Source of the DNA: Arbacia lixula
Taxonomy: Eukaryota > Echinodermata > Echinoidea > Arbacioida > Arbaciidae
DNA length: 64,000 nt
Direction of reading: 5' to 3'
Assembly: GCA_963669155.1 (NCBI GenBank)
Contig: OZ022597.1
Location: 9,375,250-9,439,249 of the forward strand
This document shows positions 2,087 through 47,900 of this stretch, piece by piece. A program made the translations under genes and the position numbers. A model generated the notes under the pieces. That model worked only from the letters and a program-made list of their open reading frames with translations. It was not told the origin of the DNA and did no database searches. Positions within the stretch are counted from its first letter, which is position 1. Each line of letters starts with the position of its first letter.

Positions 2087-2464
2087 TTATGTGTTTTTCC
2101 GCAAGAGGTCTTTTGGCAGGGAGACAATTTAGCTACGAGACGTTTTGACTCTCATGATGGTGTGTAGAAGATGAATATCTCCTGACAATTTTAAGGCAAA
2201 ACTTAAGGCCAAGGGAATATTGGAGGCAAAAATCATTGCCCTATTCTACTCCTGGCTACAGAGTGCTGGAAAAACCAAGTGTCATTGTGGTGCTATGATG
2301 AGGATGAGACTCCTATTAATTACAGGGAGAGAAAGAAAGAGAGAGAGGGAGAAGGAAAGAGAGAGAGAGAGAAAGAGAAAGAGAGAGGGAGAGAGAGAGA
2401 GAGAGAGGAGAAAGAGAAAGAGAAAGAGAAAGAGAAAGAGAAAGAGAGCGAGAGAGAGCGAGAG

Positions 2465-2515
<51 letters not shown>

Positions 2516-3300
2516 AAGAGAAAGAGAAAGAGAGAGAGGGACAATATGAAGTAGAAACTTCTGTATATACGCCATATATTTTGCGATTCTAATTTTTCGC
2601 AAATCGGGACTTCTCGTCAATTTCGCGATCGTGAGGTACTGATATGTGCTCGTGCATGTTGTATGCATAGTTCAGCGTCTTGTTAAATTTGTAAAAAGCA
2701 CCCGACTTGCGAAATTCGCTAAAATAATAACCCCGCAAAATATATGGTGTATACAGTGTTTGTTGAGCACTCCACTATCGATTGTGTCTCTTCTGAATGT
2801 GTGTTCTAAAATGAACATCTCCTGTGTTTTTTTCCCTCGGAGGTCTTTGGACTTGGAGACATTGAGTACAACAACTTATGTTTACAGCTGTATCTCGATT
2901 GTGGGTCCACATACTGGCAATAACTAGTGAATTTCTTCACCTTTGTTGACCCTGACCACACACACTGTCTCATCCGGTCATCTTTACTCTGTTGTATTGT
3001 GTCCTTTATTTGGTTATCCGTGTATTTTCTTGTAACAGTATGATGTTTTTATGTAATGTAATTGCATGGTCGAATAAATGATGATGATGATAATGATAAT
3101 GATATAAGATGAATATGTCATATGTTTTCTTCCAGAGGTTTTTGGGTGGGGCATCAATGGGTACAACACATTGCATCTCTCTTGAATGTGTGTGATACAA
3201 AGAACATCTCTTGTGTTTTTCCCTATTGCATCTTTCTTGAATATGTGTGATACAAAGAACATCTTTTGTGTTTTAGTGAAAGGGCTTTCTTAGGTAATTT
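2087..3300 (+). repeat. Degenerate copies of the exon 1 acceptor region
   Basis: Segments at about 2087-2150, 2782-2880, 3108-3172 and 3171-3275 resemble the junction at 3650-3720. Shared blocks are CTTGAATGTGTG, ACATCTCTTGTG, TTTTTCCCTC, GAGGTCTTTGG and GGGTACAACA. None keeps an open sialidase frame. A (GA)n tract interrupts the series at 2325-2540. Confidence 0.6.
2325..2545. repeat. (GA)n microsatellite
   Basis: Nearly pure purine GA/GAAA tract. Long frames in it are repeat artefacts. Confidence 0.95.
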
Positions 3301-3441
3301 CAATTTACAAAGAAATTTTAGGCATACACCCAGTAGACTACCTAGCAGACTACTCATGAATATTAATGAGTCAGATGAAATGAGACTCTTTTGTGTATTT
3401 GTTTCCATGTTGTCGTGTCTTGACCCGTGAACTAGAAATAG

Positions 3442-3510
3442 CTTGCGTGGTTAAGTCGCTGCCCGGTAAGTAGTAGACTGCAGGTTCAAATCGCGTCTGG
3501 TTCCAAGATT
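3442..3510 (+). other. tRNA-like fragment with B-box
   Basis: GCAGGTTCAAATCGCGTCT resembles a Pol III B box (GGTTCRAATCC), and TGGTTAAGTCGCTG about 35 bases upstream is weakly A-box-like. A cloverleaf does not close cleanly, so this is more likely a tRNA-derived SINE remnant than a functional tRNA. Confidence 0.3.
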
Positions 3511-3678
3511 TTTGCCTGACTTGTTTTTCGTTCATTTACAGGATGGAGCATACTATTCTTACTACTGGGTGTATGCCTGAAATTTCTTTGTTAATCTGTT
3601 GTGTTTTTCCTCCATTGTGTCTCTCTTGAATGTGTAAAATAGATGTACATCTACATGTCTGTTGTGTTTTTCCCTCAG

Positions 3679-3907
3679 AGGTCTTTGGGCAAGGAGACAG
3701 TGGGTACAACACGTTCCGCATCCCAGCCATGGTGCAGCACAGGGGAGTGTTTCTGGCCTTCTGTGAGGCGCGCCGCACCTCTTTCCGGGACTGGGGCGCC
3801 ACCATGGACCTGGTGCTACGTCGGGGGCGACTCTGCGAGGTGCGTGAGGATAACAAGGAGATAGAATGGGGCGACATCCAAGTGGTTGCTTCCATGCCAG
3901 GCAAACG
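3679..3907 (+). CDS. Sialidase (NEU2/3/4-like), exon 1 of those visible
   Basis: This exon encodes the start of the six-bladed beta-propeller of an exo-alpha-sialidase, which removes terminal sialic acid from glycans. The reading frame contains YNTFRIP, the family FRIP motif; its Arg (3717-3719) belongs to the triad that binds the substrate carboxylate. About 20 residues on, FRDWGATMDLVLRRG resembles the region carrying the catalytic Asp and the VLRRG strand of NEU2/NEU3. The 3' splice site is a pyrimidine tract ending TTTTTCCCTCAG; the donor is CG|GTAAGT. It opens with two bases of a split codon, so an upstream exon supplying the initiator Met and roughly 10-20 residues is needed; I could not find it in 1-3678. 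The exon is much richer in CpG and GC than its surroundings. Its last codon is completed by exon 2 as Arg, giving GKR-AMNP, like the RSMNP of vertebrate NEU3. Confidence 0.9.
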
Positions 3908-4008
3908 GTAAGTCAAGAACTAGGACTATAGTCTTTCAGGTACATACATCTGCTTTTCTCCATTTACCTACCTGCCATTTCTATCAAAATCAAATAATGA
4001 AACTGTAT

Positions 4009-4275
4009 GAGGTTTGAGATGATAACAAGGAGATGAAGAGTGGGGTAATATACATGTACAGGTGGTCGCTGCTTTGCCAGGCAAATGGTAAGTCAAGAAA
4101 TTGAGGTGTCTTTAACAGAATCAGCTGTACTCTTTTGAGCCACCTACTATTTGTAAATCAAAATCAAATAGATGTGTGAGGTGCAAGATGATGAACAGGA
4201 GATGTATACATGTCGAGTGGGTTGATAAATGAGTGGTCACTGCTATGACAGGCAAAGAGTAACTCAAAAACTCTA
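4009..4275 (+). repeat. Two decayed copies of exon 1 end plus donor
   Basis: The end of exon 1 and its donor (GATAACAAGGAGAT ... GCCAGGCAAACGGTAAGTC, to about 3915) recurs at 4009-4105 and 4178-4272. Spacing is about 180 and 171 bases, measured on GGCAAA. The first copy keeps GCCAGGCAAATGGTAAGTCA; the second has GACAGGCAAAGAGTAACTCA. Intron sequence (ATCAAAATCAAATA) is included in the unit. Confidence 0.75.
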
Positions 4276-4828
4276 GTAAAAAAGTAAGAAATGTTTTATT
4301 TATGATCAGGTTGTCTTTTTGTAAAGGTTTAAAGGGTTAAAGGAAGGTAATAGAATAAGAAACTGCTAGCTACAGTAATTAGTGTCAAATGCAAAACAAA
4401 GACATATTATATTTTACATTTTATAATGTAAAATAGTTTTAAACTGCCATTGAATGAGGAATAGTAGTGTGCTGGTTGTAGCATGGTATCATGGTGAGAA
4501 ATCACAACCGTCCTTGCCCCGGTCCTTGACAGATACCGTGACTTACTACATGTACATGTAGGTCAGCCATTTCTTAATCTCGGGATGAGACACACTCAAC
4601 CACTGGAATAATGGGGGATTGGCAGCTCATACGGTAGGAGCAATGCTGTAGCCCCATTAATCAAATCCAGTGCAACTTTCTTCCCCTCTCGGTCTTACTC
4701 CTTTCACACTACGTCTGACTGGCGAGAGATGTGTCTTCACGAGGCAGTAGCAGCCAATCAGATCAACCGGATTATCAAGAAGCGAGATGTTGCAAGCATA
4801 GGCCTGTATATTAGCACAAAAAATGTAC

Positions 4829-4987
4829 TGGGCCCTGTTGCATAAAACTTACCATTGATGGTAACTTTGCTACCATTGTCAACTTCCATGGAAACCTTTA
4901 ATTTGATTGGCTGTTGAGCGATGTTACCATGGTAGCTACCATTGATGGCAAAGTTGCCAATAATGGTTAGCTTTATGCAACGGGGTA
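4829..4987. mobile_element. Foldback MITE, GCATAAAACTTACCAT family, copy 1
   Basis: A palindromic ~155-bp element with ends CCCTGTTGCATAAAACTTAC and its near complement ending TTTATGCAACGGG. GTACTG borders both ends and could be a target duplication. Related copies are at 17605-17752 and 22898-23054. Confidence 0.7.
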
Positions 4988-5194
4988 CTGGTGTGCTTGG
5001 GGAGAAGCAATAATTTACAGCAGCTTTGTAGTAAACCTGATTATACGAAATGAAATACTGTAAGCCATGGGTGCACTATTGTACCCCATGCAGAAGAACA
5101 ATTTTTCAATTTTGTTTGGCATACAAAGGGTGAATATTATTCTTGAATGGCATCACAATCTTGTCTCTTCGGCTGAGAATGATGACACTGAAAG

Positions 5195-5455
5195 AGTATG
5201 AAAATGGGAGAAATGTGAAGAAAATTTTAGGTAGTTTCAGGATCTACCACTTCTGAAATAGTACGACAATGGGAGGAATGTGAAGAAAATTTTAGGTAGA
5301 TTCAGGATCTACCATTTCTGAAATGGTACGAAAATGTGAGAAATGTGAAGAAGATTTGAGGTAGTTTCAGGATCTATCATTTCTGAAATAGTACGAAAAT
5401 GGGAGAAATGTGAAGAAAATTTTAGGTAGTTTCAGGATCTACAATTTCCAGAGGT
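5195..5455. repeat. Four 65-bp tandem units
   Basis: GGGAGAAATGTGAAGAAAAT recurs at about 5206, 5271, 5336 and 5401, each followed by TTAGGTAGTTTCAGGATCTA. Noncoding. Confidence 0.88.
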
Positions 5456-5509
5456 GATACCTCTAGCTACTTCTGTTATATAATGCAGCGTGATATTCAT
5501 GTGGAGATA

Positions 5510-6065
5510 TCAGGAAAATTCCGAAATTCTAAAATATAGTGGGGTTTGTACACCATTGCTCAATATTGTTTCAGGAAGATTTCACATGCAAAATATTGAA
5601 GAATTTGCATCACTCTATCAAAGCAAAATTGAAAGTTATTTAGGGATGTGAGCAATTGCAATATTTGTGTGCAACATACATAGCAAAATATAGCAGGAAA
5701 ATTCCCTAATTCTAAAAATAGTGGGGTTTGTACACCATTGGCTCAATATTGTTTTAGGAAGATTTCACTTGCAAAATATTTAAGAATTTGCATCACTCTA
5801 TCAAAGCAAAATTGAAAGTTATTTAGGGATGTGAGCAATCGCAATATTTGTGTGCAACATACATAGCAAAATATAGCAGGAAAATTCCCTAATTCTAAAA
5901 ATAGTGGGGTTTGTACACCATTGCTCAATATTGTTTTAGGAAGATTTCACTTGCAAAATATTTTAGAATTTGCATCACTCTATCAAAGCAAAATTAAAAG
6001 TTACATATTTAGGGATGTGAGCAATGGCAATATTTGTGTGCAAGATATCCATAGCAAAATATTGC
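5510..6065. repeat. Three ~182-bp tandem units
   Basis: GTGGGGTTTGTACACCATTG recurs at about 5539, 5721 and 5904. Units are AT-rich and well conserved. Confidence 0.88.
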
Positions 6066-6109
6066 AAGAGTTTATTAGTTAATTCTGATTAAGGTTTTTG
6101 TGCCAATCT

Positions 6110-6385
6110 GGCATTAGTGTGCATGTGGGGTCTTGTTAAGAACTGGCATGTGTGCATGTTAAATAAAACTGGGAAAGGGAATTCACCCATCAGAAATAGC
6201 GCACATTTGAACAAGTGTGGTCTCATGAAGAACCGCTGTGTGTGAATGTCAGTATAACTGGAAAAGGGAGTTTTCCGATCAGAAATAGCGCACAATTGAA
6301 TGAGTGTGGTCTTGTGAAGACTCGCCACGTGTGAATGTCAATATAAACTGGGGGAAGGGAATTTGCGCGAGCAAACTCTGAGTAA
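6110..6385. repeat. Three ~93-bp tandem units
   Basis: GAGTGTGGTCTTGTGAAGA-type starts alternate with ATCAGAAATAGCGCACA blocks in three diverged copies. The minus-strand open frames here follow the repeat and are not supported as genes. Confidence 0.8.
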
Positions 6386-6791
6386 TTGGCTGAGTGGTCT
6401 TGAGACAGTGATAGAGCGAGATTTGACATTTCATTGCCAAACATTCCCTGATAAGACGGACAGACGGAGTCTCTGCAGGCAGCGTAAGCTGCGTTACAAT
6501 TAAGCCCAGCTCCGAACTTAATGCCGAAAATTATCGCGTGAAGACGGATATATGCACTTAGCCATGGGAGCGGGGATCTCCACAGTGACGTTAACCCTCT
6601 ATGTGCAACCGTGACTCCTTTAAACCGCTAATGCACTCGAACTTCCATAGAGCTGTCTTGTCTGTTGAGAGCGCGTGTTGATTTTAAAGCACTTTATTTT
6701 TAAGCGACAATGTTTGAAGTTGTTTGATATGCTTCTAAATGGGTATGAGGAATTTTAAATCACTTCATTTGTTACAGTAGTGATATCTCGA

Positions 6792-7535
6792 TTAACTCTT
6801 TACGCGGCTCGTTCGCACATTTGCACGATCGGTGGAACGGCGTATGCGCAAATCTGCACAGACCCACATATAAGTCTTTTATGTGCGAGCGTAGAGGAAA
6901 ATCAATGATAGAACAATAAGATAGATAGATCAACACAAGTGACCACCATTGAAAAAGAAGGATTACTGTCCCCAGAGCAGTCTTTTCCTGCTTAGTGTGA
7001 GCAAGCTCTTTATATTTATTGAGTAAAACACATCTTTACAAACTCAAGTTTGCTTCCCTTTTGTCTCAACAAGAATGGTGTTTCTGGTTTCAATAGAAAG
7101 CTTATATCATGACCTAAATGGCATTATTACAACTGGAACAGGTATGACAAATTATACTCCACAAAGTGAAGAATGATAAGACAATGTCAAAACGTAAACA
7201 TTTCCTATACAAGCAGTGATAAGCAACATCAATGATAGCTGGTTAATCGTTTCAACATTTAAAAGAAATTTCATGATCAGGAAGAAGATATATTTTTTGT
7301 TAAATTTTCTGCTTAGCATTTTCAGAAATAACAATCACATAGAAAGTTATAGCCATTCATATGCAACACATGTGCTCAGACCAGATAAAAACTGCACCCT
7401 CAAAATTAACACTTTGTGTGCCACATGTGGATTTATTCACAAGTATTACACACAAATCCCGTAGAGCAGCAGTTTATCTGGCACGCAGAGTGTTTATGCA
7501 CCTCGGGGTGTGCGGCCTACCGTATAAAGAGTTAA
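6792..7535. mobile_element. TTAA-flanked element, 744 bp (piggyBac-like ends)
   Basis: TTAACTCTTTACGCGG at the left and a right end whose complement is TTAACTCTTTATACGG, both bounded by TTAA. TTAA target sites and a TIR beginning C(T/C)CTTT are typical of piggyBac-type elements. No transposase is encoded. A 92-bp element is nested at 7406-7497. Confidence 0.65.
7406..7497. mobile_element. 92-bp TTAA element, copy 1
   Basis: TTAACACTTTGTGTGCCACA at the left and TCTGGCACGCAGAGTGTTTA at the right, with inner ACACAAATCCCGTAGAGCAG. Other copies are at 18910, 30577, 39950 and 53470. Confidence 0.65.
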
Positions 7536-8877: not shown

Positions 8878-8936
8878 CACTTTCTCTCTCTCCTATTCTC
8901 TCTCTCCCTCTCTCTTATACTCCCTCTTTCTTTCTC

Positions 8937-8993
<57 letters not shown>

Positions 8994-9153: not shown

Positions 9154-9413
9154 AGATGTTTTTCTTTTTTCTCTATTTCTAAGTCATCTCTCACTCTTCA
9201 GTACTATGATTTCCCTTTGATACAGGTATTATCATCCCCTCTCTTCTGTTCTGTTCTGTGTGTTTTTCTCATTGTTTATCTTCCTCCCCCACCTTTCATT
9301 CTATTACCTATATATTCTTTTACATACATTTATAGAGGTATACATGTTTTGAGCCTCCTAGGATAATTGAGTCTCTGTCTGAAGATTAACCTAAATGTAC
9401 CTGTATAATGTAG

Positions 9414-9634
9414 TACACTCCAGCTCAAAGGAATTGGCATAGGGAAAGGGAAAGGGAAGAAAGCGAAGGAGCTGCTGTTTTAAATTGTGGTTCAGCATGA
9501 AACATGATACTTTTCAGGCTAAAGCGTCGTGTTTCATGCTGACCTGGACAAAATATAACGCGGTTTAAAAATGCGGCTCCTTCCCTTTCTTCCCTTTCCC
9601 TTTCCCTATGCCAATTACTTTGAGCTGTAGTGTA
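9414..9634. mobile_element. TA-flanked foldback MITE, copy 1
   Basis: Left arm CACTCCAGCTCAAAGGAATT followed by GGGAAAGGGAAAGGG; right arm the complement, ending AGCTGTAGTG, bounded by TA. Inner arms hold TTCAGCATGAAACATGAT and its inverse, so almost the whole element folds back. TA duplication suggests Tc1/mariner mobilisation. Confidence 0.8.
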
Positions 9635-10191
9635 CATGTACATGTATGTACTAGTACAAGTACTTACTTACATGTACAGTGTACATCCTGTTCTGCAAAG
9701 CCACTGAAATAATCATCCCTCGCACCCTTCCTCTCCCCTCCCTCTTTGCCTATTCCATCAATCGAACTGAGACCCTCCTGCGCTCATCATGCCGCTCTTC
9801 GTATCTTTTTACAAATGTAATTCATCACCCCCAAGCCCCTTGATTGATCCAGTCCCTTCGCGACCCGAGCGCGCTCCGCGCCGCGCTGCGCAAACACGGG
9901 GCTAATCATGTATCCGCGCTTGCCCCCCACGTTCGGCACAACCATTCAGTGCGTGGGGTATGGAAGAGTGGACCTCTTGTAACTTAAACCTCAATGGAAG
10001 TGCCCACTTATAAAACAAGTGGTGGAGGGCTTAGGTTTATTGTATGTAGCTGTTTGGAATAAAACGTTAGTCGTGTGCTAGCGGGTGCTTGCATTTAATT
10101 TGCCTCAAAAATCATCGGGGGGAAATGAGGGTGGGGCACTGTCTTCGGCTACCCCCTTCCTCGTTCATACTTTATACTCTTGAATACACCG

Positions 10192-10396
10192 TACACTCCA
10201 GCTTAAAGGAGTTGGCACAGGGGAAGGGAAAGGGAAGAAAGGGAAGGAGCCGTAGCTTTAAACCGGCATGAAACATGATGCTGCAGCCTAAAAAGCATCA
10301 TGTTTCATGCTGAACTGGACAAAATATACCACGGTTTAAAACTGCGGCTCCTTCCCTTTCCCTTTCCCTATGCCAATTCCTTTGAGCTGTAGTGTA
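10192..10396. mobile_element. TA-flanked foldback MITE, copy 2
   Basis: Same arms as copy 1 (TACACTCCAGCTTAAAGGAG ... TTTGAGCTGTAGTGTA). Shorter by loss of part of the inner left arm. Confidence 0.8.
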
Positions 10397-10493
10397 CCTA
10401 TGAAGAAAGAAGATGGGACAAGATGAAAGAAGTGAGACAAATTAGAAGTGAAGGAATGTAAGGAAGATGGGAATAATGAATAAAAAAAATGGA

Positions 10494-10870: not shown

Positions 10871-12092
10871 ATTTGCATGTTACATGTGCAAGGATGTGAT
10901 TTACATGTTTTGCGATGTGGGACAAAAAGTTGATTTTCTTTAATATTTGCACCTGTAAGGTGTTCATTGCACATGATATCAACTCTGGCAGGTGTGGCAT
11001 GTGTACTGCATGAAGTAGCATTCTTTGCATACTTCTCTATGACAACATTGCTGTTTTTTATATTTTATTCGGGCAAGCCCTATTGTATTACAATCAGCTT
11101 GTCTGGGCCGTGCTTGTATGCGTAAAGCGATGCTATCAATCATCATCATATGCAGAATTAATCTTCCCTTCGTAGTAGCAATGCAAAACCGTGGTGTTTC
11201 TGTTTTCGCTTGCAGGCTTGGAATAGGTATGAAGCTTCCATTTTATGTTGAAAAGATAACTTTAACAAATTAACCTCAGAGAAGAGGAACCTACTTTTTT
11301 GTGGGATTACTGTATCATATCATTGTTAACGGTTTAGATGTGAGATGATTTCTTGAGTAGACAAATCCTTAGATTTCTGAGTATACACCTAGGAGAGTAT
11401 GGTTATTTTGACTGTGGTTCATATGTTTTGGTAACATGGTCCCACAAGCTTTAAGTATGACATACTGCTAACAGAGCTACCAACTAGTACTGATTTTCAG
11501 TATTTCATACTGAATAAACTTGACATACCTTATAGGACAAAATTAAGCCCATACCCCTTTGGCTACTGCAGTTCCATGGCAAAGTAACATCCTTCCTTGA
11601 CCAGAATTCACAAAGCCAGGAAATCAAACCATGAGCAACAAGTTAACACACCACTAGCGTGGTTTGTTGTTTTGTTTGGCATAGTAAATGGTACTCGGGT
11701 TAATTTCTTAGTAATCACTTTTATTTGAAATATCTGACTTTGAATTAGTGTCAGCTTGATTGAGTGCATATATTTCAGCATGCTGCATTGTACAAACAGT
11801 GCCATAGTTTGGAGGAAGAGGTATAGGTCATTACCCCATGGGTACATATTCCCCATACATATTCCACCGGTGGAGGCCAACCGCACCCCCTACTTGCCCC
11901 TCTCCGGAAGACTTATTGATCTGCGATAAAACTCAGGGGAGTCTGGGATTTCAGCCGAGGTTTTGGTAGCACACTGTGGAACCATGGCGTGAAATCATTA
12001 TCCTGTCCTCCGTTCACATCAATCGCTTGATCTGTTGTGAGCCATACCGGTATGTTAAACACGCGTGTTGTGCTGGATTTGTGTGTATCACC

Positions 12093-12318
12093 TACACAAC
12101 AGCTCAAAGGAATTGGCATAGGGAAAGGGAACAGGAAGAAAGAGAAGGGGCAGCAGTTTTAAACCGTGGTATATTTTGTCTAGTTCAGCATGAAACATGA
12201 TGCCTTAGCCTAAAAAACATCATGTTTCATGCTGAACTCGACAAAATATACCGCGGTTTAAAACTGCGGCTCCTTCCCTTTCCCTTTCCCTTTGCCAATT
12301 CCTTTGAGCTGTAGTGTA
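12093..12318. mobile_element. TA-flanked foldback MITE, copy 3
   Basis: TACACAACAGCTCAAAGGAA at the left, GAGCTGTAGTGTA at the right, with the GGGAAAGGGAA arm and the ATGAAACATGAT inner stem. Confidence 0.8.
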
Positions 12319-12961
12319 GATGCAAACATGTGGATGTGGAACATCTAGGTTGAAATTAGGTGACCTGGATTAAACATCACAATAGCTTTCCTTGAATTTG
12401 TAGGATCTGTCAAATACGGTATGTTGCAATGAACTTTTGCTGAATTATTTAAAGTCAATTTGTTGTTATTGTTTAATTTTTGGCCTAGTTTAATCCATTG
12501 CTCTTCTTCAACCTTGCTCCAGTTTAGGTTTTGAAAATTTGCATTGGAAATACAGTAACCAAAGGGGTGTGGCTTAATTGCTCCCTGAACAAAATTTCAG
12601 TATATTCATATAATCTGTCATCAATTGCCCATATAGCAGATGATGCAGGAGTTGTGCTGCTCAGAATCTGAGTGGAGAAGAGTAAGCGAGCAAATATGCA
12701 GACTAAGAATAGTTACAGGTTAATATGATGGTATGTGGAGAAAAATAAGGCCTGATGTTATAAAACAAATGGTGAAATTATTTTTTGCTTTACACCCCTA
12801 GGAAGAAATTATTTTTAAGGGCTATTTTTAGCATTGCGGGGACTAATTACTTCATCGTCAGTGTCATTTCACCCCACTGTGTACAATGTGCACATGTGAA
12901 TAGGGCTTTGTCGTCTCCTGATTTAATTGAAATTTGCAGAGTGAATGGGAAAGTTGTGACA

Positions 12962-17752: not shown

Positions 17753-18520
17753 CTAGGTCTCAACATTGGTAAATCCCCAATGAAGAAAGTTGTGAAATGA
17801 ACTCTAAAACACCTAGAATGAATTGGTTCACGTAGCCTTTCAGACAGAATGTGATAAACAGCGGAGAAAGCCCAACTGATTGCAAATAATCTTTACCACA
17901 ACAAGAAGTGAAGTATGCACATGCTATGTACTTCTACTCGGGTAGCTCCAGTACACTCGAGGACACACTGTGATTTTTTTTTCCGGTTTGGATGGGGTAC
18001 GAGACTCATTTCTGGGTTTCTGGGCTCAATTCTTATATTGCTGGGTTGCACACGCACGGACAGTCTGTCAGGCTTGCGTTGTATCTGCAGGCTTATCACA
18101 AATTCTGCCTCTATACAAAGAAGGCACAATCATGTTAAAAAATAAATTGGGAAAAATCATATTTAACAGATATTAAATTTCAGTGAAGAAATTTTCTAAG
18201 GTTATTTTAATGGAGATTTTATACATACATCCCCATAGAAAGGCTAGTGCACTCCAACCTGTAAATCAATAAAAAAAAATAAGGCAGATGAAACAAATCT
18301 TGGAATGGATTTTAACCTTGATCTGCTGCTTATTGGGCAGCACTTTAACTACATGTACATGTATAATTACATCATTTAATAATGGTGTCCTTAGTACTAA
18401 TACCTTCTACCTTTAACTCTGCATGTACAATGTCTGGCACTATTATGATTATACAACACATTGTCTTAGAATGAGTTAACCCGGTTAGTGCTACTGTGAC
18501 ATGATTGCGGTAGTGATATA

Positions 18521-18755
18521 TACACAACAGCACAAAGGAATTGGCATAGGGAAAGGGAAAGGGAAGAAAGGGAAGGACCCGCAGTTTTAAACCGTGGTAT
18601 ATTGTGCCCAGTTCAGCATTAAACATGATGGTTTTTAGGCTAAGGCATCGTGTTTCATGCTGAACTGGACAAAATATACTGCGGTTTAAAACTGCGGCTC
18701 CTTCCCTTTCTTCCCTTTCCCTTTCCCTATGCCAATTCCTTTGAGCTGTGGTGTA
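18521..18755. mobile_element. TA-flanked foldback MITE, copy 4
   Basis: The longest copy, with both inner arms complete. Ends TACACAACAGCACAAAGG and TTTGAGCTGTGGTGTA. Confidence 0.8.
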
Positions 18756-18909
18756 CAAATCCTATAGGCTGTATTTCATTTGGCCCAGAAAGAGTTAGTT
18801 TCAATCGATACCAGCTTGTTAACCCCGACAATGCCATAAAAGATGCTACTCTGTAGAATGTGTCTGTAAAGGAAGTAATGGGATATTGGCATTAAAAGTA
18901 ATGTAAAAT

Positions 18910-21395: not shown

Positions 21396-21840
21396 CATTC
21401 TGAATATGTATTGCATTTGAATCATCCACAAAAAACACTTCCAAAAACAGAATGAATCGGTTCATTGGGGAGGATTGGTGGTGGTGGTGGTGGTGGGGGG
21501 GGGGGGGGGGTCCTCTCCACATCTATAAATCCTTTCTAAGCCCTTGTGGGATAAGGCAAAAACTCTGTGGTGTCATTTGTTTCAAATATGAACTACATGT
21601 ATATTTAATGAACTTCATTCAATTAATGAACTACATTCTGAATATGTATTGCATTTGATTCCATCCACGAAAACACTTCCTAAAACAAAATGACTCCATT
21701 CTTTGGGAAGGATTTGAGGTGGTGGTGGTGGTGGTGAGTGTGGGGGCGTCTCCTTCACTTCTCTAAATCCTGTCTAAGCCCTTGTGGGATAAGGCAAAAT
21801 CTCTGTCTTGTCTTTCGTTTCAAATATGAACTGACAGGTG
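21396..21840 (+). repeat. Direct pair of ~200-bp repeats
   Basis: ATTCTGAATATGTATTGCAT starts at about 21397 and 21636. Both continue through CACTTCC, a (GGT)n/G tract, TAAGCCCTTGTGGGATAAGG and TTTCAAATATGAACT. The first has a long poly-G run. Confidence 0.85.
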
Positions 21841-23262: not shown

Positions 23263-23491
23263 TCAGCTCAAAGGAATTGGTAAAGGGAAAGGGAAAGGGA
23301 AGAACGGGAAGGAGCCGCAGTTTAAAACCATGGTATATTTTGTCCAGTTGAGCATGAAACACGATGCTTTAGCCTAAAAACTATCATGTTTCATGCTGAA
23401 CTGGACAAAATATACCACAGTTTAAAACTGCGGCTCCTTCCCTTTCTTCCCTTTCCCTTTCCCTATACCAATTCCTTTGAGCTGTAGTGTA
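23263..23491. mobile_element. TA-flanked foldback MITE, copy 5 (left end clipped)
   Basis: Starts TCAGCTCAAAGGAATT, lacking the usual TACACTA, and ends GAGCTGTAGTGTA. Its flanks match the uninterrupted sequence at 19011-19085, which is a likely empty site. Confidence 0.8.
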
Positions 23492-26220: not shown

Positions 26221-26450
26221 GGCGATGAACCCTGTCCCAATCGTCGACGAGGACACAGACACCATCCTCCTTGTCTTCATCACGTTCCCCATCGAGCTTT
26301 CCGAGGCGGACCTCATCCTGGGCGACTCGTACCAGCAGAGTCTGCACGTCACCAAGAGCATTGACGACGGAGCGACGTGGACCGCTCCCATCGATATCAC
26401 CGCACAGACCCTGGGACGCATGCGCCCAGAACCACTCATATATGCACCAG
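26221..26450 (+). CDS. Sialidase exon 2 (first Asp box)
   Basis: This exon continues the sialidase propeller. It begins AMNPVPIVDEDTDTILLVF, matching the family segment after the first blade (MNPCPVYD in NEU3), and contains SIDDGATW, a canonical Asp box (S-x-D-x-G-x-T-W) that caps a propeller blade. The acceptor is a long T-rich tract ending TTGTTGCCAG; the donor is CACCAG|GTATGT. The exon takes one base to finish the split Arg codon and leaves one base, so it is compatible with exons 1 and 3. There are no in-frame stops. It lies more than 22 kb downstream of exon 1. Copies of its 3' boundary recur in the following intron. Confidence 0.9.
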
Positions 26451-26469: not shown

Positions 26470-26570
26470 TTCAATTCGATTCAAAATGGGTTTTATTTCA
26501 TAATCATAAAATACAAAAAATTGTATAAACATTCACTGTAAATATAAAATAAAGAGACAATGAAAATGGA
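26470..26570 (-). mobile_element. Non-LTR 3' end fragment beside exon 2
   Basis: TTCAATTCGATTCAAAATGG then GTTTTATTTCATAATCATAAA, similar to 10494. Its insertion lies only ~20 bases past the exon 2 donor. Confidence 0.35.
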
Positions 26571-26933
26571 AGCTGCAAAAAACTTTACAGGTTTGAGGGT
26601 GCAGCTCCCTTACATATAAAATATAAATGAATGAAGATCGTTAAAAAATGTTACTTTCCTAATTGATTTCATATAAAAGACAACAAACAACCTATAAATA
26701 ATAGCAAGCATACACATAGTCATACAACAGCACACCCACACGTACATCCTATAATACATACATGTACAATAATACTAATTCGTTTGGACAATTTACATTC
26801 AGTTACGTAGAATATTTAGATACAAAAGTATTTTGAATAATTAATGTTAATCCATACATGCACCAGGTATGTTACGCTGGATTAATGTTAATCCATATAT
26901 GCACCAGGTATGTTATGCTGGATTAATATTACA

Positions 26934-27544
26934 TACAGTTGAGGCCAAAAGTTTACATACACTCATGGAATTCATTAAATTTGTTCGCTTGCCAAACATC
27001 GTAAGACTTACTACATCTTCAGATATATAAGTACTACCATGACGAATTTGGTATCAAATGAAAGAGCGTATTAAGCTCTTTCACATGATTGGAATGCTGT
27101 TGGGATTAAATTATATTTCAGGTGGACTTTTCTTTAAAGAAAAGCAAGTAATATTTGTGCCAAATGTATTTTATTGTGTGTTATTATATTTTCAAACATT
27201 GTTTCATAAAATATATTAATGCCAAATCTATGACTATATGTCATTTTCTACCATGATATGTCACCACTGAACAAAAAAAGTGTAATCTTAAATGTTTGTG
27301 TTGAGATGTAACTAGCACAAATGTTTTAGTCAAGTTTTTTTGGGGGGAAACATGACACCTAAATATTCTTCAGCTTCTGATGAAAAGCAATGAGATGAAG
27401 GGGCATGACATACTCATTTGTTTGATATGAAATTCGTCATGATAGCACAAATATTTTATAAGATACAGTAAATTTTATGATGTTTGGCAAGTGTCAACTT
27501 TTCTTTGAATTTCCTGGGTGTATGTAAACTTCTGGCCTCAACTA
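26934..27544. mobile_element. Tc1/mariner-type nonautonomous element, copy 1
   Basis: TA then CAGTTGAGGCCAAAAGTTTA on the left, and TGTAAACTTCTGGCCTCAACT then A on the right, where TA is expected. The TIR strongly resembles Tc1-type ends (CAGTTGAAGTCGGAAGTTTA in Sleeping Beauty). No transposase frame. Confidence 0.85.
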
Positions 27545-27612
27545 TTTGTGAACACACCTCCTGTTGCATGCATGTTGAATTACTCATCCCTTCACCAGGT
27601 TTTTCGCATTTG

Positions 27613-28838
27613 ATTTTTTATTGTGCCTACCGACCTCATCATAGTATTGACACTCCTCACTGATGTTTCCAGTTTCATCTTACAGAAAATGGACAGTGGA
27701 TCAGCAACAGCAATGGTGCGTTTAGATCTGTCGGCCGCATTCCACACCATAGACCACACTTTACTCATAAATACTCTGACTAGTTTAGGGGTTCAAGGCA
27801 AGGCTTTAGAATGGCTGATATCTTTCCTTGCAGTCACAGTCAGTCCTCCTGAATGGTGTTACCTCCTCATCTCGATCAATGGTCTGCGGTGTCCCCCAAG
27901 GTTCTGTTGGAGGGCCCATTTTGTTCTCCGTTTATATAACAGGGCTCAAAGATATTTTCCAACGTCACTCCGTTCATTATTATTTATATGCGGATGATAT
28001 TCAGATTTTTGTTTCTTTTTCACCCAATCAAACTAGTGCCACCCAAGCTATTTGTAATCTGTAAAGGTGTATAATGGACCGATACTTGGTTGAAGTCACA
28101 CTCGTTACTTTTGAACCAAAGTAAATGTGAGTTTTTACTTTTTGGCTCAAAATCTCAACTCAACAAATTAGACATTGATTCCATTTCCATCTCAGGCAAC
28201 AACATTCCCTTGTCAAAATCATGTCGCAACCTTGTTGTTGTTTTGGACTCACATTCACTCATTTCGTCGCGGCTCGATTTTGGTAATGGCCTCCTATACA
28301 ACTTACCAGAATCTCAAATTGGGAAAGTTACAAAATGCAGCTGCACGCATTGTAACTTTAACCGGCAAGCGCAGCCACATCACCCCTGTCTTGAAAAGTC
28401 TTCATTGGTTGCCCCTGAGGGAGTGCCTTGTCTTTAAAATACTTCTTTTAGTCTTTCATATTGTCAACGGAACTTCCCCCAGTTACAATAAATCTTTGAT
28501 TACAACTACCAATCATCACGAACCTTAAGATCCTCCACATCCGGTCTTCTGCAAGTTCCCGTTTAAAAAGAAATCGTGGGTAGAACGGGCCTTTGCACAT
28601 GCAGGGCCAACCCTCTGGAATTCTCTTCTACAGAGTTCGAAAACCCTGATGTCAGTGACTACCTTCAAGGGCAACCTAAAGACATTCCTGTATTATGGTG
28701 CTTTTTGACATACAACCATATATATTTTAATTCGTAAAGTTCATACCTGTATTGTATTGTATTTTTTTTTCTCTCTAATTTGCTCTGAAGTGCCTTGAAG
28801 CATCTAATTAAGATGGAAAGTGCACTATATAAATTCTA

Positions 28839-36085: not shown

Positions 36086-36175
36086 GTCCTGGTCATGGAC
36101 TGCAACTCAAGTCCGGACGTCTCATCGTCCCTGGCAACATACACTGGAAAGAGAAACCCAATCCAGATTCAACAG
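36086..36175 (+). CDS. Sialidase exon 3 (GPGHG motif)
   Basis: This short 90-base exon encodes GPGHGLQLKSGRLIVPGNI followed by a hydrophilic stretch. GPGHG(I/V/L)QL-x-x-GRL(L/I)VP is one of the most conserved segments of cytosolic and plasma-membrane sialidases, where it forms a propeller strand and turn near the active site. The first Gly codon is split across the junction with exon 2. The acceptor is TTTATTGGTAG and the donor ACAG|GTAAAG. The exon leaves one base, completed by exon 4 to a Gly codon. The pyrimidine tract is weak, but frame and homology make the call secure. Confidence 0.88.
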
Positions 36176-36489: not shown

Positions 36490-36810
36490 GTAGATGTGAA
36501 ACAAGTGGAACCCTTATTATTACCAGCCCTTGAAAAACTTTGTGACTCTTTTAAAACGTTTATTCCAATTGTAATGAGGGAGTCAAACCTTACATTAAAG
36601 GGCCTTGAAAACCTCATTGGCTTACTACACATCTTCATGCCAATGGTAGTTAGTGAATTAACCCTTACATTACCAGGCATTGAAAGCCCCATTGGCTCAC
36701 CACACATATTCATGCCAATGGTAATAATAGAGTTAACCCTTACATTACCAAGCCTTGAAAACCCATTGGCTTACTACACATCTTTATGCCAATGGTAATG
36801 AGGGAGATAA
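36490..36810. repeat. Four 75-bp tandem units
   Basis: CCTTGAAAA or a variant recurs at about 36528, 36603, 36679 and 36753, with CATTGGCTTACTACACATC and TTCATGCCAATGGTA. The 75-base period keeps one frame open by chance; there is no other coding evidence. Confidence 0.85.
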
Positions 36811-37312: not shown

Positions 37313-38104
37313 TTCGCAATGGTTTGCATATTTAGCATTACAATGTATTTGTACATTACATGCCTCGACATGCTACACTCCTACCCTTTTCACCAGTTTA
37401 TTTTACACACAAATCGTATAATATATTACAGCATATTCCTGAGAAAGGAGTACACTGTACATGTATATTTTGAGTACATTTGAAAATTGTTTGCCTTTTT
37501 GATGGTTGCAATTTGTGAGGTGTGTTGGGAAAATTAATTTTGCCCACTCTGTGACCTTCCAAATTGAAAGGGGAAAACACGATGGTCTGGCTTTCAATGA
37601 ATTTGAGAGAAAGACTTGTAGAAACTGGAGCAATGGATACAATACTATTAACAGTGATTGAATATTTCTACTTTAATTGGGCCAGTGACAAGGTCTGTTT
37701 TATGTCTGCCAATTCCCTTTTCTTTTCACTATGGCGTTTCTTGGTGGTAACTTGCTCTTCATGTTGTATATAACTAGAGCAATTTCTTATTCGTCTTTCA
37801 AGTGGAGAAATTTCAGCCTGTTTTGTGCGATACTGCATGCATGCAGATGAAGCTTTCAGCCACCAATATGTAGGACAATGACATGTCTTTTTATTCAATA
37901 GCCATTTTTAAAACATTTTACCCTGGTAGGTTTTTTTTGAGTACCAAAGTGTGACATCTTATGAGCTTGTTGTCAAGACAACGAGTTCACCTGTATCTTG
38001 TCATTCAGATTCAATAGATGGAATGCACTTTGAATCTATTAGTTGTTGCTACTCGGACAAACCTCAGACAAGCTTTGGGGTTCCCATTGGTGACGTTTTG
38101 TTTG

Positions 38105-38138
38105 AAAGGCGTGAATAAAATATTTTATTCACGCCTTT
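38105..38138. repeat. Perfect 34-base palindrome
   Basis: AAAGGCGTGAATAAAAT is followed directly by its exact reverse complement with no spacer. Confidence 0.9.
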
Positions 38139-39026: not shown

Positions 39027-39202
39027 GCTGGCTGGCAGAGCTGAAATGGACCATCCTCGAATTCTTTGACAGTTTCCATGGCAGCAGGAATTGCTCCATC
39101 GTGCTCTTCAGTGATGACGGAGGCGACACATGGCAGGTTGGGGGGAAGATCCCACCTGCGAAGGACGAGAACGGAGAAGACATCCCAGCGAACGAGTGCC
39201 AG
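39027..39202 (+). CDS. Sialidase exon 4 (Asp box, catalytic Glu)
   Basis: The exon reads WLAELKWTILEFFDSFHGS and then SDDGGDTW, a canonical Asp box. It ends in ANECQ, whose Glu corresponds to the catalytic glutamate of the family motif ECQ (E218 of human NEU2, from family knowledge). That residue supports the nucleophilic Tyr. The acceptor is CCCAAACCCAAG and the donor GCCAG|GTAGGT. An alternative AG inside GGCTGGCAG would shift the start by ten bases; the upstream AG is preferred because it keeps phase with exon 3. The exon ends in phase 0, matching exon 5. The residues before the Asp box look longer than in vertebrate NEU2, possibly a lineage-specific loop. Confidence 0.87.
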
Positions 39203-39945
39203 GTAGGTTAAGCTGTCAGTTTTTCTATCAATCAGCTTATGTACACATGTACAATGTACCTTTAGTATTTGGTGTGCTCTCTTTGTGTTTCATAACTTCA
39301 ACATTTGAGCATAAAAATTCAGTTCTTCTGTCAATCCATCAGTTCATGTACACATGTACCTGTATGTGAAGTGCTCTTCTTGATCTTTTAGAGCTTCAAT
39401 ATTTGAGCTTGAAACTTCATTTCTTCTGTCAATTAATGCATGTACCTGTATGTGATATGCTTCCTTTTATTTTTCTTTCATAACTTTAAATATTTATAGC
39501 TTAAAACATTAATACTAAATTTCATGTACACATGTACCTGTAAATGGTGTGCCCTCTTAATATTATACAACTTTTAATATTTTAGCACAAAGTTGCAATG
39601 CTAAATTCAGGAAGGATAAGCAGTTAGCATGCAGTAATCTGTCACAGTGGGCCACATTTAAAATACATTCAATATTGAGCTCATACAGTATCTTAAATAT
39701 AAAGTTTAATTCTTTAGTTCAGTTCTCCAATTTATTTCTCCAATTTATCAGTGTGCAATTTGCTGAGTTGCACATTATGAATGCAAACACTATTTGAGCT
39801 ATAAATATTCGACACTAAAGTCAGTTCTTCTGTGAATCAGTGTGCAATATGCCGAGAAAGAATGCTTTTAATATTTTAGCTCAAAATATCTAGATTCAGG
39901 TGTGCTGTCAATCAGTATGCAGTTTGCTCTTTTCACATGAATCCT
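39203..39945 (+). repeat. Tandem repeat starting at the exon 4 donor
   Basis: Roughly 100-130 base units follow exon 4 directly. They share TTCTTCTGTCAAT, CATGTACACATGTACCTGTA, GGTGTGCTCTCTT and AATATTTGAGC. The first unit begins within the donor-proximal intron (GCTGTCAGTTTTTCTATCAA). I see no exon 4 coding sequence in the units. Confidence 0.6.
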
Positions 39946-42080: not shown

Positions 42081-42083
42081 CCT

Positions 42084-42560: not shown

Positions 42561-42639
42561 AGACAGGCGTGTGTCATCTAATTGTGATCATCCCTCCTTG
42601 CACACCCACTGGGGTTATTGATCATCACGCTGTTTCCCC

Positions 42640-42740
42640 ATTCGTCTGACGGTCAGTGGTAGAGCACTGGACGCATGAGCCCAAGCCGTCAAGACGCCCT
42701 AGAACCAGCTGTGTGCGATTGATCGTACAATTGACATAAC
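42640..42740 (+). other. tRNA-like A-box fragment
   Basis: GGTCAGTGGTAGAGCACTGG resembles the 5' part of a tRNA or tRNA-derived SINE. No clear B box follows at normal distance. Confidence 0.25.
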
Positions 42741-42845
42741 CTTGGCAGCAGATTGTCTGGTGTGCTGGTGTGTAGTAGGAGGAGAGATGACAGCTAGCGA
42801 GATTAAAGGGACCCAATATATTTTCCCTTGAAATTTTCACAGATT

Positions 42846-44180
42846 AATTAGATAGATAGATAATGGTTTATGGGGATAAAAACAACAACAACAGAACAAA
42901 ACAGAAACACTTCGCGGCTCACAGGCCGAATTGCGTGTAACTTTACAATGTATACTGTACATAATCATCTATAAACATATATAAACATTAGAATGGGTGA
43001 CAGAGGTTCTGTACATTGTGCAGAATATGCACATACAATGCATTACATACATGTACATGTTTATATATACTGGTAGTGAATATATTGTTTATGTACACTG
43101 TATTCTTTTACTTTTATTAAAATTTGATTCTCATCACACCATGCCCTTTTAAATGATGAAATACATTTAAACACAGTAGGAAAAAAAAAAGTGTATAGAA
43201 AACATATTAGCTGAACAATACAGCATATGGAAATATAGTACAGTTTGTGTGATATACACATCATACACTGAATCAGTTTGAATATTTACAACAAAATCAA
43301 GATTAATATTTTGGTTGCTAGCAGGAATCATACATCAACACAATATGTGTGCTAGTCAAGCCTGATACTTCAATTTCTTTGGTAAAATAACTTAATATCT
43401 CTTTAAATTGCAAGTGACTGCTTTGTCCTTCCAATTTTATGATGCTGATATGTATAGATCCGTCTTAGATGTAAGAACTTATTTCAGCTGTCTATTTAAC
43501 TATCTACATGTAAAAGCACAATGACAGAAAGATAGCTTGTTGGTGAATTTGGCATGATATGCTGTCATACATGCTGCACTGCATTGCATACAATAAATGT
43601 TGTAACTTTAATCATAACTGGCTAACAGCTACAGAGAGCAGTTTCCATGGTAGTTACACATGAGCCCAGGGCCGTCATGCACCAAGGTTAAGATTAAACG
43701 CAAATCAGATTAAATGCAAAATTCAAACACAAGACGCATTTAATATTTGTCGCGCATTGCACAAAGAGAATTGTGATTATATTTGATTATATTCAAATTG
43801 CAAAGTTGCGTTTAATCCACATAGGTACAGCAAATCATTGCATTTAAAAACTCAACCCTTTGTGCAATGGAATACAGGTTAAATGAAATGCTATGTTTAA
43901 TTGAAATGAGTTGTGCTTAATTTTGGATTTACGTTTATCGTAACTTTTTAGAGCAAGATGGCCCAGGACTCCTTTTACATGCGCATGTAAAACATTGATT
44001 CATATGTACATCAATCTAGCAACGATATATTGCTGTCCTCTGCAATATAGCACTTTTCATGTAGTCCCATATATTGATTTATTGTGACTTTTATTTCCCC
44101 TCCATCATATTCTTGTATCCTGGGGTAGTTTCTATTGTGTGTAATTTATGGACGTTGCATAGTTCCTCCTTCTTTTAATT
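42846..44180. other. Intron stretch with retroelement-like start
   Basis: A (GATA)n tail followed by TGGTTTATGGGG and TTCGCGGCTCACAGGCCGAA resembles a minus-strand LINE 3' end. The remainder, including the CAAGGTTAAGATTAAACGC block at 43680-43970, is unassigned repeat-like DNA. Confidence 0.35.
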
Positions 44181-44269
44181 AATGAGCTTCATTTCTTTGC
44201 AAATTGATTGCTGTCAGTTGCATTCATTAAAGTGCGGTGATGCCCAATTGAGTAATTTGTCTTCTTGCT

Positions 44270-45090
44270 CTCTCAGTTCACTCTTTCTATCTCCCTCTGT
44301 CTCTCTCTGTCTCTCTCTGTCTCTCTGTCTCTCTCTCTGTCTCTTTATCTGTCACTGTCTATATCTCTGTCTTTAGCTCTATCCGTCTCTCTGTCTCTCT
44401 GTCTCTGCCTCTGTCTTTAACTCTATCTGTCTCTCTCTATTTTTCTGTCTCTGTCTCTGTCTTTATCTCTATCTGTCTCTCTATCTTTCTGTCTCTTTAT
44501 CTGTCTCTGTCTTCATCTCTATCTCTCTCCCTGTCTCTCTGTCATTCTGTCTCTGTCTCTGTCTTTATTTCTCCCTGTCTTACTGTCTCTCTGTCACTCT
44601 GTCTTTCTGTCTCTGTCTCTGCTTCTGTCTTTATCTCTATCTGTCTCTCTGTCTCTCTGTCTCTACCTGTCTGTCTCTGTCTCTATGTACCTGTCTCTGT
44701 TGCTGTCTTCTTTTTATCACCCTCTCTTTCAATATTCCACTCCCTCTCTCCCTGTATATGCATGCGCACGTACTTTGCTATATTGTATTATCACTCTCTT
44801 CCTCTGTCTTTCTGTATATATTATGTTTGTCTTGTTCTCTCTCCCGTCCTCTTTCGTTCTCTTATGACATGTTAACTGTCTCTCTCACTTTAGCTGTCTT
44901 TCTTTCTGCTCTGTCTCTGTCTCTCTGTCTCTCTATCTGTCTATCTACATGTATCTTTCTCTCCCTCTTTCTCCGTGTCTCTGTCTCTGTCTCGGGCTGT
45001 TTCTGGTCTCTTTTTGTATGTATGTCTATCTATCTCTCTGTCTCTGTCTCTTTCTGTCTCTCTCTGTCTCTCTATATGTATATATGTATC
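44270..45090. repeat. (CTGTCT)n-rich microsatellite
   Basis: About 800 bases of CTCTGTCT/CTGTCTTTAT units. All open frames here are artefacts. Confidence 0.93.
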
Positions 45091-45556
45091 TCTCAATCTT
45101 GCCCATTGAATACAGTATAATGTTACCACCATCTTAGGCCATTTTTTATTTTTTAATATTCTCTCTCTTTTATTTTCTCCCTTCCTCTCTTCCTTATTTT
45201 ATCTGAACTTTTCTTTATCCCTCAATTTCCCTGTACTTTTCTTCAATGTCTCACCTTCCAATTTCACACATTCATTTATTTACATGTACATGTTTATGTA
45301 AAGATAGGTCTTATCATATACACATGTACATGTACATGTATGCTGTTCAACATGACTGTATGGAGGGCTCATTAAAATCTGACTAAGTTGTGCTTACACA
45401 CACTTAAACATACATGTACATGACGCAGGACGGTATATGCCTCATCACTATGCTGCCAAAGTTACCTCAACATAGAGTGTAGAAACAAGTGTCCAGTTCA
45501 TCTACTTGAAAATTGGTTTATTATAATACACACAATAGATAAATATAGATAAATAT

Positions 45557-45664
45557 CACACCTCACAAGCCATCTGCTTTCTGGTGATGCCTTATATTCA
45601 TTGTTCATGAAAGTTGTTAATTCTTGTTTGTTAAATGAATAAATAATTGAATTGAATTGAATTA
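45557..45664 (+). mobile_element. Non-LTR 3' end with (GAATT)n tail, copy 1
   Basis: CTTTCTGGTGATGCCTTATA then ATTCATTGTTCATGAAAG and a tail of GAATTGAATTGAATT. A second copy is at 58686-58797. Confidence 0.65.
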
Positions 45665-46099
45665 AGCATGCCTGGGGGTGCAATTGCACAAGTTGATTGA
45701 TTATACTTGCCCAGCAGACTTGCATGTCATATACGATGCCACTACTTGTATTGGGCGAACCTACCATTTATTTCCATCTCCCCCTTTAACGATGTTAAGC
45801 CATGGGGCCTGTTACCTGAGCTATGAATGATGAATTATGCTCCCTCATTGAACCCCAGAGGGCGACATATAACCCCGCAAAGTGCACGCACCCTTGCCTC
45901 TGCCCATGCACTTCTGGTAATGAAATTCTAATGCTGCAGTAATGAAAGTTACGTACGGGAGCTTATTAAACGTATTATTTGAGATGAATGCCAGCACCAT
46001 TCAGGGAGAAGGGCAACCGTTGTGTAATATTTATGTTGATATTGTGTGTGTGGAGAAGTGTACAATGATGCATCTCATTTGATAGGATGCATGCAGATA

Positions 46100-46650
46100 A
46101 GAATGAGAGAGAGAGAAAGAGAGGGGGAAAGGTCGAGAGAGAGAGGTAGAGAGAGAGGGGTGGATTATGAATAGAAATGAAGGGTAGAGAGAGAGAGAGA
46201 GAGAGCAGGAGAGAGGGTAGTGGGGAGCATTGAGAGAGAAAGAGGGCGGAGTGGAAGGTAGAGAGAGAGAGAGAGAGAGAGAGAGGGGTGGATGGTGGAT
46301 AGAAATAAAGGAGATAGTGAGAAAAAAAACAAAGGAGAGAGAGAAAGAAGAGTGAGATGAAGACGGGGGGAGGGGGGAGGGGGGAGGGGGAGGCAAAGGT
46401 TGAGCGAGAAGTGAGATGGAGAGATGGAGAGAGAGAGTGAGACGGGTGTGTGGTGGATAGAAATTAATATTTGGAAGATAGAGGGAAACAAGACAAAGAA
46501 ATAAAGAGAGAAAGAGAGATACATGTAGGTGGGGGGGGGGATTGAGTAATGTAAGGGGTTGGGTAGAGATTAGGACAGGAAGATGAAGTGAGGGGAGGGG
46601 GGCCGAGGGGAGGGGAGGAGGCAGAGAGAGAGAGGGAGAGAGGAGGTAGA
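46100..46650. repeat. GA-rich purine tract
   Basis: GAGAGA with GGGG and GATAGA interruptions; internal ~95-bp near-repeats (GGTGGAT...AATAGAAAT...GGTAGAGA). Confidence 0.93.
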
Positions 46651-46830
46651 GATGTAGAGAAATAAAACGGGTGGTTAGAGAATAAAGGGTGGATAAAGAA
46701 GTGAAACAGAGAGACATGGTCACAGACAGATTCAGGTAGAGAAAGATGGAGGGGGGTGAAAGATAGAAAGTAATGCACAGAGGAAAATGCAGTGACAGCA
46801 GAGAGTATGTAAATCATCACTTTAATTATT

Positions 46831-47207
46831 GTGAATCTAAAGGGTTAATTATTCAACAAAATTGCACACTGTGTTCATGTAGCATAGACCCTACAATGGT
46901 TAGAGCCTTTATAGAGTTCTGAAGTGTGACGTCATATGAGCTAGTTGTCAAGACAACTGGTCCTAAACTATGAGGGTGGAGGTGAACATCAATGATCATA
47001 GTGAAGACTCTCAATGGGAGTGCCTGAGACTAGCCCGCTAGACAATGTCGAACCAGTGAAAGTCTCTCTTGAGGGATGTTGCTTAGAACGAGAAGCCGGT
47101 GTAAGAATGGGTATGAATCTAAAGGGTTAATTATTCAACAAAATTGCACACTGTGTTCATATAGCATAGACCCTACATTGGTTAGAACCTTTATAGAGTT
47201 CTGAAGA
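46831..47207. repeat. Direct repeat pair (~95 bp)
   Basis: GAATCTAAAGGGTTAATTAT begins at about 46832 and 47114 and runs through CATAGACCCTACA to TTTATAGAGTTCTGAAG. The pair lies just before exon 5. Confidence 0.85.
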
Positions 47208-47302
47208 ATGGGTGTAAATGGTGTAAAAAGTGTAAGAATGGGTATGACAACATCATTTTGGTAATTAGTTGCCCTCCTTTGTCTTCCCTCTCCTGACACC
47301 AG

Positions 47303-47494
47303 GCAGCGGAGCTTGAGGAGGGTCATGTGTATGTGAATAGCCGGACATGTCACCCTCAAACCTCGCGCCAGGAATCCTACAGCATCGATGGAGGAATCTC
47401 CTTCACCATGGGTGAACTCTCAGAAGAACTAGAGGAGCCGGGATACTTTCTCTCCAAGTGGATCCCCTCCATCAAAAACTTTGGTGGTTGCCAG
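47303..47494 (+). CDS. Sialidase exon 5 (catalytic Arg)
   Basis: This 64-codon phase-0 exon begins AAELEEGHVYVNSRT. Joined to exon 4 it gives NECQAAEL, equivalent to ECQVAEV in NEU2, and the Arg of VNSRT aligns with the second carboxylate-binding arginine (R237 in NEU2 numbering, from family knowledge). SIDGGISF is a degenerate Asp box lacking Thr and Trp. The exon ends FGGCQ before the donor CCAG|GTGAGA; the acceptor is CTCTCCTGACACCAG. No in-frame stop occurs. Decayed copies of the exon end plus donor follow in the next intron. Confidence 0.9.
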
Positions 47495-47549
47495 GTGAGA
47501 AAGTGCTTGTTGCTAGGGAAGAAGTCTTGAGGGTATCCATGCCAGAACT

Positions 47550-47900
47550 GGGTACTTTCTCTCCTAATAGATCCAGTCCATCAAAAACTTTGGTGTTGTC
47601 AGATAAGAATTTAAGTTTTTGCTAAGTAAAAACCTTGCTTGTTGCTAAGTAAGGAACTTTGAGGGTGTACATGCAAGAAATTAAATGATAATGATGATGA
47701 TAAGAAAAATACAATGCATAATCTTCAATAATTGCTAATGTTTCAAACTGAGTTAATTTCTCTTTAAGGGAATTTCGTCCATCACAAACTTTAGCAGTTG
47801 CTAGGTAAAACAATTTGCTTGTTGCTTAGGAAGAGAACTTGGCAGTTGCTATGTAATACTTCTTGATTGTTGCTGGGTAAGGACATATGAGTGTCATAAT
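47550..47900 (+). repeat. Decayed copies of exon 5 end plus donor
   Basis: The exon 5 end (CCATCAAAAACTTTGGTGG ... CCAGGTGAG ... CTTGTTGCTAGG) recurs at 47553-47665 and 47760-47830, with further GTTGCTAGGTAA-like pieces to about 47895. The first copy retains ACTTTCTCTCC and ATCAAAAACTTTGGTG 109 bases after the original. The copies contain stops or lost donors, so they are unlikely to be used exons. Confidence 0.7.

Follow-up and report, generated by a model that had tools for sequence, protein, structure and literature searches.

Decayed copies of exon edges in the introns of a sea urchin sialidase gene, probably left by ordinary local tandem duplication

Beside several exons of a sialidase gene of the sea urchin Arbacia lixula, short segments that contain the exon edge, its splice site and part of the adjoining intron recur in decayed form, which raises the question of whether exon-intron junctions are themselves the target of a duplicating process. 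Most of the coding part of this gene lies inside the window, the 64-kb stretch of DNA analyzed here (C22:9375250-9439249, in a genome of 607 Mb), and a further 5′ exon is located ~20 kb upstream of it, at C22:9355238-9355330. The original prediction, which was made from the letters of the window, had put forward two explanations, a local process acting at junctions and general local tandem duplication in which the copies lost coding constraint. Our results favor the latter: the copies very probably arose by ordinary short local tandem duplication, which in some cases fell by chance across a splice junction, without the need to invoke a process directed at junctions.

We constructed the gene model from tblastn matches with the Strongylocentrotus purpuratus protein combined with splice-site inspection. 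The gene product is most closely related to S. purpuratus sialidase-3 and NEU5.2, and next to other sialidases of echinoderms and hemichordates. The coding exons number six: E1 (3679-3907), E2 (26221-26450), E3 (36086-36175), E4 (39027-39202), E5 (47303-47494) and the final exon E6 (48239-48592). They are in frame up to the stop codon (TAG ends E6) and have GT/AG sites. Positions without a contig name are those of the window; the exons and the repeated units derived from their edges are on the plus strand, as is the array adjoining the E4 donor, and features for which no strand is mentioned have none assigned.

The recurrence of decayed exon-edge segments beside the real exons held up in self-comparison and alignments. 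Local direct copies that take in an exon edge, its splice site and adjoining intronic sequence span 4 of the 11 splice junctions, namely the E1 acceptor, the E1 donor, the E2 donor and the E5 donor. E1 had been named as a clear case on both sides, and both sides bear this out. Its acceptor has three copies with the exon edge, consisting of intron end and exon start (c1, ~2051-2144; c2, ~2778-2877; c3, ~3110-3172), and two copies with the intronic part only, which are repeated with a period of 55 (c4 and c5, 3170-3275). An insertion with 34-bp inverted repeats at its ends (3303-3595) separates the decayed copies from the real E1 acceptor. The E1 donor has two decayed copies of a unit comprising exon end, donor and intron, with a period of 172 (copy B, ~4002-4168; copy C, ~4180-4310). 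Copies B and C have common states that are absent from the real exon, which suggests, from a few sites, that one of them was made from the other.

The donors of E2 and E5, likewise predicted as clear cases, proved to be so. A 41-bp unit of the E2 donor recurs in two copies at 26840-26931, one of which matches the sequence spanning the junction exactly for 26 bases, and the E5 donor is followed by two decayed copies (B, ~47545-47655; C, ~47752-47850). As a check set beforehand, the junction alignments were compared with those of shuffled sequence, and all four sets of copies exceeded the highest shuffled control: the scores were 201 for the E1 acceptor, 169 for the E1 donor, 136 for the E2 donor and 227 for the E5 donor, as compared with a shuffled-control maximum of 130. 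The E2 donor array is interrupted by a dispersed element (26470-26834), which separates the real donor from the copies; 39 other genomic copies of this element were scored and were 79-95% identical (40 of the 134 candidates were scored). We considered the E2 copies as target-site duplications of this element and rejected this assignment, as the right end of the element does not abut a copy and two tandem copies follow it. As a separate observation, an element with inverted ends occurs both beside the E2 donor array (26931-27549) and downstream of the gene (52438-53101), in opposite orientations and with 80% identity over 659 aligned bases.

Two further junctions, the E4 donor and the E2 acceptor, had been proposed as weaker cases, and neither was upheld. 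An array of ~103-bp units adjoins the E4 donor (39217-39634); it starts just after the donor and includes no exon edge or other exon sequence, and the best match at this junction does not straddle it. One of the three 80-base windows placed over the E4 junction scored 133, because this window extends into the adjoining array. The E2 acceptor scored 87, a value equalled or exceeded by 18% of the 5,986 intronic background positions. The junction scans of the gene found no junction-spanning copy at E3, and no tandem duplication of a whole exon, with an open frame and both splice sites, was met among the copies, which hold exon edges only. Tandem Repeats Finder (TRF) identified comparable arrays away from exons, at 1272-1649, 5188-6363, 21396-21832 and 36565-36799. 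The array region at 5188-6363, in intron 1, consists of units of 65, 183 and 89 bp and is at least 1.3 kb from an exon.

Are the junctions of this gene spanned more often than expected from its introns? With a loose threshold, the 4 of 11 junctions spanned compare with 23.6% of intronic positions (binomial P = 0.25; rigid-shift P = 0.19). A sweep of 21 settings, in which 2 to 4 junctions were spanned, gave binomial P values of 0.018-0.26 and shift P values of 0.027-0.21. With fixed 50-base windows and a threshold of 120, 4 of 11 junctions were spanned as compared with 10.1% of intronic positions (P = 0.019), and other thresholds gave P values of 0.034-0.33. When all 11 junctions were compared by rank, P was 0.38. 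As the gene was chosen for the arrays noticed in it, the smaller of these values have to be read with caution. The excess of junctions over intronic positions in this gene is marginal and depends on the threshold.

We repeated the scan, as the original prediction had suggested, on a sample of further genes from this genome, namely two sialidase paralogues located on C22, exons of CCT chaperonins (PF00118) and exons of the myosin head (PF00063). The exon edges of these control genes were taken from the ends of Pfam or tblastn matches combined with a rough splice-site score, not from annotation. The CCT sample comprised the first 30 of 60 matches and the myosin sample 20 hand-chosen exons among the 73 matches listed; a sialidase-like locus on C15 was left out, as its matches did not resolve into exons. 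In a first round, covering the paralogues and CCT with 1-kb flanks and a threshold of 120, 54 edges were accepted and 52 scanned, and a spanning local copy was found at 2 of the 52 junctions, as compared with 9.9% of 9,841 background positions. In a pooled round, with 600-bp flanks and the same threshold, 37 edges with weak splice scores were dropped and 2 of the 97 accepted junctions were masked. Spanning copies were present at 9 of the remaining 95 junctions (9.5%) and at 875 of 10,631 intronic positions (8.2%; P = 0.38). The window gene together with its upstream exon contributed 3 of 12 junctions, the paralogues 1 of 21, CCT 1 of 31 and myosin 4 of 31; in this setup, the window gene alone gave P values of 0.09, 0.046 and 0.45 at thresholds of 100, 120 and 140, respectively. 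When the weak edges were restored, the other genes had spanning copies at 10 of 120 junctions as compared with 9.1% of background positions, and edge sets of 88, 100 and 120 agreed in outcome.

The copies found in the other genes are of the same type. They include the copy of the donor of the penultimate exon of sialidase paralogue A (283/315 identical), a copy of a CCT acceptor in L033 (146/172) and copies of myosin acceptors in L067 (144/160), L073 (98/117) and L074 (131/152). Upstream of the myosin acceptors in L074 (~700-950) and L073 (~690-930), more than one decayed copy of intron end plus exon start can be read. Exon-edge relics are not rare in our sample, and their frequency is about that of local copies at intronic positions. 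These comparisons do not bear out the local process acting at junctions. They agree with the alternative of general local tandem duplication, as the same type of array occurs in other genes at the background rate and many arrays lie away from exons. Arrays being equally common away from junctions had been named as the result that would speak against an association with junctions; this is largely what was found, with the marginal excess at the junctions of the window gene remaining.

The divergence of the copies provides a second line of evidence. If a copy is neutral and its exon is constrained, the two should differ at few of the first and second codon positions and should differ at third positions about as much as in the intron, and pairs of decayed copies should show no such pattern. 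Between the real exons and the decayed copies, mismatches at codon positions 1, 2 and 3 numbered 26/126, 18/130 and 46/130, respectively, and the intronic parts had 132/390; third positions differed from the first two (44/256 taken together) with a Fisher P = 1.2e-4, an optimistic value for the reason given below. Between decayed copies, the corresponding figures were 27/79, 20/82, 28/81 and 80/220, and third positions did not stand out (P = 0.46). At positions 1 and 2, the Jukes-Cantor distance to the real exon was 0.195, about half of the 0.370 that separates decayed copies from one another, as would be expected if the real exon does not change. Similarly, identity to the real copy was higher in exonic (296/386) than in intronic sequence (258/390; P = 0.0015), and identity between decayed copies did not differ significantly (167/242 exonic as compared with 144/224 intronic; P = 0.33). 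The copies resemble neutral remnants, evolving without coding constraint, of an original that remained under it, and the loss of constraint that the original prediction had proposed fits both the codon-position and the exon/intron patterns.

Taking these results together, we propose that this intron-rich gene, like other genes of the genome, repeatedly underwent short local tandem duplications, with units here of 41, ~95, ~110 and 172 bp, and that some of them happened to cross a splice junction. Duplication of a segment across an acceptor would give two successive units of intron end plus exon start, the second of them joined to the rest of the exon and providing the acceptor in use; at donors the arrangement would be the mirror image. 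The geometry implies that such a duplication would be tolerated because the unit joined to the rest of the exon is still spliced, leaving the message unchanged. The extra unit would then become intron and decay neutrally, and it may later be re-duplicated or split by insertions. Tolerance through splicing requires the copies to be situated beyond the real exon edge, in the intron, as was the case for the best 12 junction matches of the pooled round and the best 10 obtained with the weak edges restored, two sets that overlap. As to the molecular cause of the duplications, slippage, unequal exchange and end joining are candidates, and these data do not distinguish among them.

Junction relics should also stay recognizable for longer than purely intronic duplicates, because selection holds the real exon edge still. 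In simulations, the detectable lifetime relative to that of fully neutral pairs was 1.35-1.49-fold with half of one copy frozen and 1.48-1.68-fold with 70% frozen. When the intronic part was scored alone, 7 of the 9 copies fell below 118, the threshold of the loose scan of this gene, including the two at E2 that have only 12 intronic bases. Frequent tandem duplication in introns and a template frozen by selection can together mimic a process aimed at splice junctions.

Several points weigh against this explanation. The excess in the window gene is nominally significant at some settings (lowest P = 0.018; P = 0.019 at the threshold of 120). The advantage in visibility predicted above is absent from the pooled data (9.5% as compared with 8.2%), in a sample too small to exclude it. 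The P values of the divergence analysis are optimistic, because only nine copies are available and the pairs share members. Finally, local copies in the other genes show a weak apparent rise near exons, to 13.2% of positions at 60-120 bp as compared with 5.6-10.4% further out, although neighboring positions are correlated. On another reading, short tandem duplications are somewhat commoner within ~100 bp of exon edges, such that part of intron growth starts at the splice junctions and about one in ten sampled junctions has a relic within 600 bp; we consider this quite improbable.

A rival explanation holds that exon-intron junctions are acted on by a process, for instance one coupled to transcription or splicing, through which tandem copies form more often there than elsewhere. 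It could draw on the 4 of 11 junctions spanned in the window gene, with nominal P values down to 0.018, and on the slightly raised number of local copies 60-120 bp from exon edges in other genes. The junction counts nevertheless stayed near or below background in every comparison that included other genes (9/95 against 8.2%, 10/120 against 9.1% and 2/52 against 9.9%), the comparison by rank had P = 0.38, and equally clear arrays exist away from exons, which together make such a process very unlikely.

It is also very unlikely that the copies are functional and have been retained to regulate splicing, whether as decoy sites or as alternative edges of the exons. Some copies do retain good sites, the rough donor score being 10.5 for E1 donor copy B and 9.7 for both E2 donor copies, and the rough acceptor score 7.8 for the E1 acceptor copy c3, but the site has been lost in others (1.1 for E5 donor copy B and 2.8 for E1 donor copy C), and the comparison of decayed copies with one another revealed no significant codon-position pattern.

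There is scarcely any likelihood that the arrays derive from dispersed repeats, or from target-site duplication by inserted elements, and resemble exon edges by chance, since the copies carry the coding sequence of their own exon and the E1 region matches itself alone in the genome, even though the array at the E1 acceptor and that at the E2 donor do contain dispersed or inverted-repeat elements. The sole match of the E1 region in the 607-Mb genome was obtained at the sensitivity of the search tool, which skips very common words; it substantiates for E1 the earlier claim against a single dispersed repeat as the source of the arrays, and this outcome is limited to E1.

In literature searches, no paper was recognizable by its title or the start of its abstract as describing this exact pattern, which may still be in print; the closest papers among those listed were on exon duplication. 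In the human IFI6 (6-16) gene, a minisatellite at an exon-intron boundary provides several splice donors. The tandem unit there likewise includes the donor site at the exon edge, but its repeats are used in splicing, whereas the sialidase copies are decayed. Intron gain by tandem genomic duplication is reportedly the subject of work by Hellsten (2011) and by Gao and Lynch (2009). A review describing such gain through the duplication of AGGT-containing exon segments (PMC3443670) presents a related situation, in which a short tandem duplication includes exon sequence and the extra copy is hidden by splicing; the difference is that a new intron is made there, whereas here existing introns appear to be lengthened by a unit that holds an existing splice site and intron. 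Tandem exon duplications (PMC9013439) resemble our case in that exon sequence is duplicated locally, inside one gene; they involve whole duplicated exons, some of them expressed, whereas the sialidase copies are decayed exon edges only. A tool paper on exon duplication within genes states that partial, inter-boundary and intronic events affect more genes than full-exon duplications do. Its classes include copies of coding exons in the same gene that lie over exon-intron boundaries or in introns, some of them degenerate, much like the copies described here; it classifies events by the share of the whole exon covered, whereas the units in the urchin are shorter, centered on one junction and in tandem. 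As each of the sialidase relics pairs one constrained with one free exon edge, they offer a local gauge of neutral divergence and of constraint on codon positions and splice sites.

Other repeats were observed in the introns of the gene and around it. Intron 1 contains five copies of a self-complementary element of ~230 bp resembling a miniature inverted-repeat transposable element (9413-9635, 10191-10397, 12089-12322, 18515-18761 and 23264-23491). In intron 2, a reverse-transcriptase-like fragment (27614-27997) matches RVT_1 with E=9.8e-6 and 25.9 bits, which is below the Pfam cut-off of 29.6. A diverged repeat is present on both sides of E6 (47942-48107, 48783-48957 and 48959-49149) and, in inverted orientation, in intron 3 (37986-38119). 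Downstream of the gene, a TAC-type trinucleotide array extends over 1.9 kb (50181-52062). ARAGORN found no tRNA. Elsewhere in the assembly, contigs C208 and C360 have tRNA-synthetase frames (PF00133) with internal TGA codons and no TAA or TAG reported, with 17 TGA codons inside the frame at C208:17800-19512 and 11 and 5 at C360:8349-9917. From their sequences, these contigs look like those of a bacterium that reads TGA as Trp, such as a Mollicutes-like symbiont or contaminant in the assembly.

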